A DNA stretch of 64,000 nt, from the NCBI GenBank assembly GCA_022842205.1, contig JALHQA010000007.1, forward strand, positions 1 through 64,000, written 5' to 3'. Shown one piece after another: positions 61,651-64,000 of the stretch. The position numbers were made by a program, and so were the translations under genes. The DNA comes from Hyphomicrobiales bacterium. Lineage in GTDB: Bacteria; Pseudomonadota; Alphaproteobacteria; Rhizobiales; Methylopilaceae. Positions within the stretch are counted from its first letter, which is position 1. The number at the start of each line of letters is the position of its first letter. The notes under the pieces are model-generated. The model did not search any database. It was not told the DNA's origin and saw nothing but the letters and a program-made list of their open reading frames with translations.

Positions 61651-62802
61651 GTCACGGTACCGTCGTCCGTACGGGCCGTCATCACGCGGCTCCGGCTCAC
61701 GCATTTCCGCAATCACCCATCGCTCGCGCTGAGCTGCGGGCAGCGTCTTGTTGCGCTGACCGGACCGAACGGGGCCGGCAAGACCAACCTTCTCGAGGCA
61801 ATCTCGCTGCTGGCGCCGGGGCGCGGCCTTCGCCGCGCCGCGCATGCCGATATCGCGCAGATCGACGGCAACGGCTCGTGGGCGGCCGCAGCGGAAATCG
61901 AGGGAGCGCTGGGCGAGGCCGCGCTCGGCACCGGCATCGAAGCGGACGACAATGAAGGCGCCTCCCGCCGCTGCCGCATCAACGGCGCGGCGGTGTCCGG
62001 GCCCTCGGCCTTTGCCGATCATCTGCGGGTTGTCTGGCTGACGCCGGCCATGGATGGGCTCTTCACCGGGCCTGCCGGCGATCGCCGCCGGTTTCTCGAT
62101 CGCCTCGTGCTCGCGGTCGACCCGTCGCATGGCACCCGCGTCAACGCATTCGAACGCGCCTTGCGCTCGCGCAACAAGCTGCTGGAAGAAGGCGCTCGCG
62201 ATCCGCGCTGGCTCGATGCCGTCGAGCACGAGACGGCCGAGCTTGCCGTCTCCGTTGCCGCCGCCCGCATCGAAACCGTGGCGCGCCTCGCAGGACTGAT
62301 CGCGGAAACGAAGTCGGATTCCGGTATTTTCCCTCATGCGGAGATCCTGCTGGGCGGTTGGATGGAGGACAGGATCGGCTCCGGCAGCGCCGCCGACGCC
62401 GAGGACATATACCGCGACCGGCTACGCGAGCTGCGCGGCCGCGACCGCGCGGCGGGACGCACCACCGAAGGCCCGCACGCATCCGATCTCACCGTCCGCC
62501 ACGCGCCGAAGCAGATGCCGGCCAATCTGTGCTCGACCGGGGAGCAGAAAGCGCTCCTCCTTGGACTTGTTCTTGCGCATGCCCGGCTCGTCGCCCGGCT
62601 CTCCGGCGCAACGCCGATCGTGCTTCTGGATGAGGTTGCGGCCCATCTCGATCCCGATCGCCGGGGCGCCCTTTACGGCGTTCTGGAAGACCTTGGCGCG
62701 CAGTCCTTCATGACCGGCGCCGACATCGCCCTGTTCGACAGTCTGGGGCCGAATTCCGCGGTGTTTTCGATCGGCCCGGGCCGATGCGAACAGGCGCGTT
62801 GA
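61651..62802 (+). CDS. recF: DNA replication/repair protein RecF; start codon unresolved
   Basis: ITRLRLTHFRNHPSLALSCGQRLVALTGPNGAGKTNLLEAISLLAPGRGLRRAAHADIAQ... The Walker A lies upstream of the first in-frame ATG (61993); no ATG/GTG/TTG back to the dnaN stop. Confidence 0.9.
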   Translation, partial: VTVPSSVRAVITRLRLTHFRNHPSLALSCGQRLVALTGPNGAGKTNLLEAISLLAPGRGLRRAAHADIAQIDGNGSWAAAAEIEGALGEAALGTGIEADDNEGASRRCRINGAAVSGPSAFADHLRVVWLTPAMDGLFTGPAGDRRRFLDRLVLAVDPSHGTRVNAFERALRSRNKLLEEGARDPRWLDAVEHETAELAVSVAAARIETVARLAGLIAETKSDSGIFPHAEILLGGWMEDRIGSGSAADAEDIYRDRLRELRGRDRAAGRTTEGPHASDLTVRHAPKQMPANLCSTGEQKALLLGLVLAHARLVARLSGATPIVLLDEVAAHLDPDRRGALYGVLEDLGAQSFMTGADIALFDSLGPNSAVFSIGPGRCEQAR

Positions 62803-62809
62803 GGCCGCT

Positions 62810-62942
62810 GAATCGGGCTGCTAAAAACGCAATTCCAGCAATGCGTTAGAAGGCGGAAAAAAATCGCGATTCCTGGCGCGATTCCGGCCGGATTCGCGTG
62901 AATTTCCGGGGTGATTCGCCTATATTAATGATGCTGCGAATC
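62810..62942. promoter_or_regulatory. Cluster of six GANTC (CcrM-type methylation) sites upstream of gyrB
   Basis: GANTC at 62810, 62868, 62880, 62891, 62913 and 62938. Confidence 0.7.
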
Positions 62943-62982
62943 GCTCCCGGTCCGCGGACTTTTTTCAAGGAATTTTTGCATC

Positions 62983-64000
62983 ATGGCCCAACCTGCCGGA
63001 GCCCGGTCCGACAGCGATTACGGCGCGGACTCGATCAAGGTTCTCAAGGGCCTCGACGCCGTGCGCAAGCGCCCCGGTATGTATATCGGCGACACCGACG
63101 ACGGGTCGGGCCTGCATCACATGGTCTATGAGGTCGTCGACAACGCGATCGACGAAGCGCTGGCCGGCCATGCCGATCTCGTGACCGTGACGCTCAACGC
63201 CGACGGCTCATGCACCGTATCCGACAACGGCCGCGGCATTCCGACGGACATCCATACGGAAGAGGGCATTTCCGCCGCCGAGGTCATCATGACCCAGCTG
63301 CATGCCGGCGGAAAATTCGACCAGAATTCCTACAAGGTCTCCGGCGGCCTGCATGGCGTCGGCGTTTCGGTCGTCAACGCGCTGTCGAAATGGCTGCGCC
63401 TGCGCATCTGGCGCGACGGCAATGAGCACGTCATGACGTTCACGCATGGCGACGCCGACGCGCCGCTGGCGGTTGCCGGCGAGGCCAACGGCCGCCGCGG
63501 CACCGAAGTCACCTTCCTGCCGTCGAAGGAAACCTTCACCCAGGTTGAATTCGACTACGCGACGCTCGAACACCGCCTGCGCGAACTGGCCTTTCTGAAC
63601 TCGGGCGTCCGCATTGTCCTGACGGATGCGCGCGGCGTCGAGGAGAAGCGCGAGGAGCTTATGTACGAAGGCGGCATCGAAGCCTTCGTGCGCTATCTCG
63701 ACCGCACCAAGAAATCGCTCATCGACCGGCCGATCGTCGTTCGCGGCGAGCGCGAGGGCATCGTCGTCGAAGCCGCCTTGTGGTGGAACGACAGCTATTA
63801 CGAAAACGTCCTCTGCTTCACCAACAACATTCCGCAGCGCGACGGCGGCACCCATCTCGCCGGTTTCCGCGCGGCGCTTACGCGGCAGGTGACGAGCTAT
63901 GCGGACACGTCGGGCATCTCGAAAAAGGAAAAGGTCGCGCTGACCGGCGACGACTGCCGGGAGGGCCTGACCTGCGTTCTGTCGGTCAAGGTACCCGATC
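62983..64000 (+). CDS. gyrB: DNA gyrase subunit B, 3' truncated by window end
   Basis: [54 protein letters not shown]...; open-ended, so missing from the ORF track. Confidence 0.98.

Follow-up and report, generated by a model that had tools for sequence, protein, structure and literature searches.

The upstream region of gyrB in this bacterium of the order Hyphomicrobiales is probably a sigma70 promoter responsive to GcrA and CcrM, with two YGATTCG sites as its core. This reading is drawn from sequence, and is based upon the arrangement of six GANTC sites between recF and gyrB, the conservation of GANTC at the promoter, and the presence of both regulatory proteins in the genome. The features of the region are itemized in Table 1, numbered within the window (the whole 64-kb stretch of DNA that was analysed).

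Table 1. Features of the recF-gyrB region, in window coordinates. G002 and G003 are genomes of the same genus.
Feature	Position	Strand	Remarks
recF-gyrB intergenic region (gyrB promoter and leader)	62803..62982	+	recF frame ends at 62802, gyrB ATG at 62983; 52% GC
GANTC site 1	62810..62814	.	GAATC; TGAATCG, far upstream, no YGATTCG match
GANTC site 2	62868..62872	.	GATTC; CGATTCC, 5' of -35, lineage-specific
GANTC site 3	62880..62884	.	GATTC; CGATTCC, 5' of -35; a single GANTC at a roughly equivalent place in each of G002 and G003
GANTC site 4	62891..62895	.	GATTC; GGATTCG, immediately 5' of -35, lineage-specific
Putative -35, GTGAAT	62898..62903	+	17-nt spacer to -10; TGAA-type hexamer in four genus members and Bosea relatives at a similar distance from -10; prediction
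GANTC site 5	62913..62917	.	GATTC; TGATTCG, matching the extended GcrA motif exactly; 3 nt 5' of -10, within the spacer to -35
Putative -10, TATATT	62921..62926	+	CCTATAT block kept in four genus members and many families
GANTC site 6	62938..62942	.	GAATC; CGAATCG, i.e. CGATTCG on the other strand; ~+5; the conserved site, in 4/4 genus members, with a comparable site in many other families
Ribosome-binding site, AAGGAA	62967..62972	+	CAAGGAATTTT kept across the genus
gyrB, 5' part	62983..64000	+	NCBIfam DNA gyrase subunit B, E 1.5e-176; gene call extends to 65406 in contig C7

The block conserved within the genus comprises GTGAAT, 17 nt, TATATT and then AAGGAA, before the gyrB ATG at 62983. 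A strict sigma70 scan of the gyrB upstream region (TTGACA/TATAAT) found no promoter, so the promoter call is based upon conservation. Taking the start point to be ~62933 from the position of the conserved -10, the six GANTC sites are located at -123, -65, -53, -42, -20 and +5, and those at -20 and +5 lie in the interval from -40 to +40 around this predicted start. The same two sites flank the -10, one within the -35/-10 spacer and the other at ~+5. They are also the only ones of the six to match YGATTCG (62913 as TGATTCG, and 62938 as CGATTCG on the reverse strand), and they conform to the extended motif YGAKTCK / TGATTCG, which the other four do not. YGATTCG is the extended motif found at GcrA-activated promoters (PMC7987155). 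It occurs in 20 of 402 promoters of this genome (5%), and in that list gyrB is the sole promoter with two such sites. A structured RNA leader was rejected, as the gyrB leader gave no Rfam match and folds unremarkably, and no match to DnaA- or CtrA-like sites was reported in the recF-gyrB region.

A first-pass annotation of this DNA had described six GANTC sites in 133 bp, with five of them in 75 bp, and all are present at the positions it gave (62810-62942 for the six, 62868-62942 for the five). The background that it assumed, of about one site per 300 bp, was too high; the window contains 103 GANTC, or 1 per 621 bp, compared with 349 in dinucleotide shuffles. The intergenic stretch is 52% GC against 65% for the window, and in 864 kb of this genome GANTC occurs at 3.25 per kb in non-coding and 1.77 per kb in coding DNA. 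Promoters were ranked within these 864 kb (31% of the genome), together with a pattern scan of the whole 2.78-Mb genome. The cluster has the highest GANTC density in the sampled DNA, and among 515 upstream regions that of gyrB has six sites; the next highest count is three, reached by seven regions. In the genome scan triple GANTC at short gaps are found at about two dozen places and a five-site chain at gyrB only. Under a Markov model built on the composition of the 180-bp intergenic stretch, P(>=6 GANTC) is 0.0009. The cluster is thus real and clearly unusual; its density by itself is not astronomically improbable, and would not settle function. The sister genome G002 has five GANTC in 133 bp (L314:8890-9022; at 2970891) within long open frames, with no clear promoter; dense clusters are thus found outside promoters too, and density alone is weak proof. 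A tandem-repeat origin was dropped, as TRF found no repeat in the cluster region.

Conservation picks out a single site within the genus. The +5 site (62938) is present in all four genomes, the -20 site (62913) is found only in the genome described here, and a single GANTC is located 5' of the -35 in each of G002 and G003. More widely, the DNA upstream of gyrB was compared at 120 loci of both named and unnamed relatives, of which 94 have GANTC and 64 YGATTCG within 200 bp; the gyrB starts in the relatives were taken as the ATG with the best ribosome-site match, and some of these upstream windows may be shifted. The mean number of GANTC per 200 bp is 1.15 upstream of gyrB and 0.25 in coding DNA, and YGATTCG makes up 51% of the upstream GANTC against 9% of those in coding DNA (Fisher 9e-21, uncorrected for relatedness). 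Since such p-values ignore relatedness, the tally by family is the safer number. Of the 28 families in the order sample, 23 have GANTC at half or more of their gyrB loci, and 17 reach this level for YGATTCG. Among control orthologues, YGATTCG is found at 3 of 30 dnaN loci, compared with 21 of 29 for gyrB. The conservation upstream of gyrB orthologues that the annotation named as a check holds for GANTC at the promoter, which is kept far above the controls, and does not extend to the tightness of the cluster, because the relatives mostly have one site (one in 45 of 83 order-sample loci, two in 20 and none in 12). One locus (L291, family f16) has five GANTC in the 200 bp upstream of gyrB, in a different arrangement from that in the window.

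The position of the site differs between families, and some lineages that have GcrA lack it. The Methylopila-related genus of the same family has TGATTCC in place of YGATTCG. The gyrB upstream DNA of Methylopila sp. Yamaguchi (L085) is near-identical to that of a genus g3 locus of the same family (L016), from which the family is probably allied to Methylopilaceae. Among 31 dereplicated gyrB orthologues, YGATTCG is most often located 7-12, 17-20 or 27-32 bp from the -10. These distances look like helical phasing, with few lineages contributing, so that the associated p of ~1e-5 should not be taken literally.

The annotation had described the element as right beside the dnaA block, and a link to that block was rejected. 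While recF adjoins gyrB in this genome and in G002, a recQ-like helicase gene (L252:5379-7190) lies between the two in G003, where the promoter block and the +5 GANTC are kept. Elsewhere recF is often undetected upstream, and GANTC is still present at 49 of the 59 loci where no recF was detected within 1.5 kb 5' of gyrB. The GANTC element thus belongs to gyrB rather than to the dnaA block. Where gyrB follows recF by no more than 60 bp GANTC is found at 5 of 15 loci, compared with 89 of 105 other loci (p 7e-5), and gyrB genes so placed probably have no promoter of their own. In G002 the GC skew, calculated for 21 sampled stretches, reverses close to the dnaA/gyrB end and a second time at ~1.6-1.8 Mb, from which gyrB is probably near the replication origin in the genus. 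Proximity to this skew-inferred origin makes early hemimethylation plausible, and the hemimethylation-timed expression of gyrB that had been proposed is a plausible prediction.

Both proteins required for such control are encoded in the genome. CcrM is an adenine methyltransferase that matches 6pbd over its full length (E 3.5e-150), with DPPY and TQKP and the CcrM C-terminal part. GcrA has its DNA-binding and sigma-interacting domains, matching PF07750 (E 1.5e-56) and 7ye1 over residues 1-162 (E 8.9e-44). The ccrM gene, upon which the annotation had made its proposal depend, is therefore present, and gcrA with it. Of the GcrA/CcrM-responsive element that it envisaged, the two proteins, the exceptional density and the conserved promoter GANTC are supported; the tightness as such is not conserved, and the dnaA-block link is unsupported. 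Each of the 23 genomes tested has GcrA, those of families with no GANTC site at gyrB among them, and for these genomes its loss was rejected as the cause of the missing site. The 200 bp upstream of gcrA itself (L145:4253-4452; G000:C1:204253-204452) contain three GANTC, among the top counts in the sample.

The other gyrase subunit gene has a related arrangement. GANTC is found at 27 of 30 gyrA orthologues, and in the order it often abuts the -10 (GAATCGGCTATAA). In this genome the gyrA promoter (L249, G000:C6) reads CGGAATCGCCTATCTT, with GANTC directly 5' of the -10, and its junction GAATC-GCC-TATCTT corresponds to the GATTC-GCC-TATATT of gyrB. The gyrB promoter thus combines both arrangements, i.e. 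a site abutting the -10 as in gyrA, and a downstream site. In C. crescentus gyrA expression is lower in a ccrM deletion and the gene is a member of the GcrA regulon (PMC3973325). YGATTCG is also located upstream of genes identified by eye as dnaG-like (G000:C3:155082-156986) and rpoD-like (G000:C3:152920-154932), and primase and sigma70 may share GcrA/CcrM control.

GcrA binds domain 2 of sigma and stimulates formation of the open complex at methylated promoters (PMC7403470), and promoters in which GANTC lies in the -35/-10 interval make up a temporal class of their own (PMC4287350). In the proposed mechanism CcrM would methylate the GANTC sites of the gyrB promoter, and RNA polymerase, with GcrA attached to domain 2 of its sigma factor, would bind GTGAAT-17-TATATT. 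The DNA-binding domain of GcrA would then read the methylated YGATTCG at -20, +5 or both, and this contact would accelerate open-complex formation. The output of gyrB would in this way be linked to the methylation state of the promoter, and hence to replication of the locus, and the two gyrase subunits would be co-controlled, since gyrA bears a site of this type. The functional core would consist of the YGATTCG pair that flanks the -10, the +5 site being ancestral in the genus. The other four GANTC would be a lineage-specific addition that either raises the local occupancy of GcrA or is neutral. Being lineage-specific and lacking the extended motif they may be neutral or auxiliary. Against the GcrA/CcrM reading count the variable position of the site and its absence from some lineages with GcrA, the TGATTCC of the Methylopila-related genus and the negative strict sigma70 scan. 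The GcrA targets of B. subvibrioides likewise showed no extended motif (PMC7987155), and the presence of GANTC by itself is a weak predictor of GcrA regulation.

The density of sites may then be no part of the function. We lean slightly towards the explanation that the conserved site or sites alone matter, and that the dense cluster is neutral, having arisen in AT-richer non-coding DNA tolerant of GANTC together with a local repeat (CGCGATTCC twice). This is compatible with the promoter reading given above, and competes only with a function for the density. It is consistent with the almost 2-fold higher GANTC rate of non-coding DNA, with the lack of both extended motif and conservation in four of the six sites, with the mostly single-site promoters of the relatives, and with a chance expectation of ~0.07-0.09 such clusters over the entire non-coding DNA of the genome. 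Against it, at the upstream GANTC rate of the genome six sites at the gyrB promoter specifically have P = 2.5e-5, the cluster is located exactly on a promoter that conservation already marks as using GANTC, and an extra site 5' of the -35 is present in G002 and G003 as well. A function for the additional sites might come from their spacing. The GANTC at 62868, 62880, 62891 and 62913 are 12, 11 and 22 bp apart, and could form an array phased at 11 bp. GcrA or another protein would read these sites from a single face of the helix, and methylation would then control gyrB cooperatively or in a graded way. The fit to a helical repeat is better than ~99% of random placements (p 0.011, with the period scanned from 10 to 11.5), GcrA is a dimer in PMC3667746, and two GANTC lie side by side in the mipZ promoter of C. 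crescentus. The p value is nonetheless modest and was chosen post hoc, the array is missing from the other members of the genus and there is no tandem-repeat signal, so that we regard a phased array as doubtful. Most improbable is that the GATTC repeats are sites for another regulator and the GANTC incidental, an example being the direct repeat GTTC-N7-GTTC of the alphaproteobacterial LexA type. LexA and GANTC sites can overlap (PMC7987155), and ATTC-CGGCCGG-ATTC at 62881 has the N7 spacing; this is the only candidate, and as ATTC-N7-ATTC it lacks the G of GTTC in both half-sites and was rejected as a LexA box. Such an origin would also explain neither why YGATTCG is kept in different families at differing positions nor the parallel with gyrA.

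A broader and distinctly unlikely proposal is that gyrB of the Hyphomicrobiales represents a class of GcrA promoter, in which the methylated site is 3' of the start and separated from the -10 by between one and three turns of the helix (modes 7-12, 17-20 and 27-32 bp). In the species described here a phased array 5' of the -10 would be added, giving a multi-site, graded sensor of methylation that couples the supply of gyrase to replication of this origin-proximal locus. If the GcrA/CcrM reading is correct, replication-coupled methylation control of both gyrase subunits would operate well outside Caulobacter, and the capacity for DNA supercoiling would be coupled to the cell cycle widely in the alphaproteobacteria. 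The varied and apparently helically spaced sites provide a natural series on the placement of GcrA relative to RNA polymerase, with this species as the natural maximum in the number of sites.

The closest known counterparts are the GcrA/CcrM sigma70 promoters of C. crescentus (mipZ, podJ, ctrA P1, gyrA and parE). These share with gyrB the presence of CcrM and GcrA, a methylatable GANTC near a sigma70-like promoter, the extended YGATTCG and a DNA-topology gene as target. They differ in the order, Hyphomicrobiales here, in the number of sites (six here, compared with one or two for mipZ and ctrA P1), and in that the genus-conserved site lies just 3' of the inferred start of a promoter known from its sequence. 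The promoter of repABC in Agrobacterium tumefaciens similarly has several GANTC (three) in a replication-linked operon, and is activated by GcrA with site-specific effects of mutation (PMC11514494). The gene and replicon are different, and the individual sites were tested in A. tumefaciens, whereas those of gyrB are read from the DNA. gyrB itself ranks near the top of the conserved GcrA targets predicted for 23 Caulobacterales (PMC7987155), a prediction that concerns the same gene and motif and was likewise made from conservation. The present analysis differs in covering families of the Hyphomicrobiales, the position relative to the -10 and control genes, and in a cluster size that is peculiar to this species. 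GcrA/CcrM control of gyrB, already suggested for the Caulobacterales, thus very probably extends to the Hyphomicrobiales.
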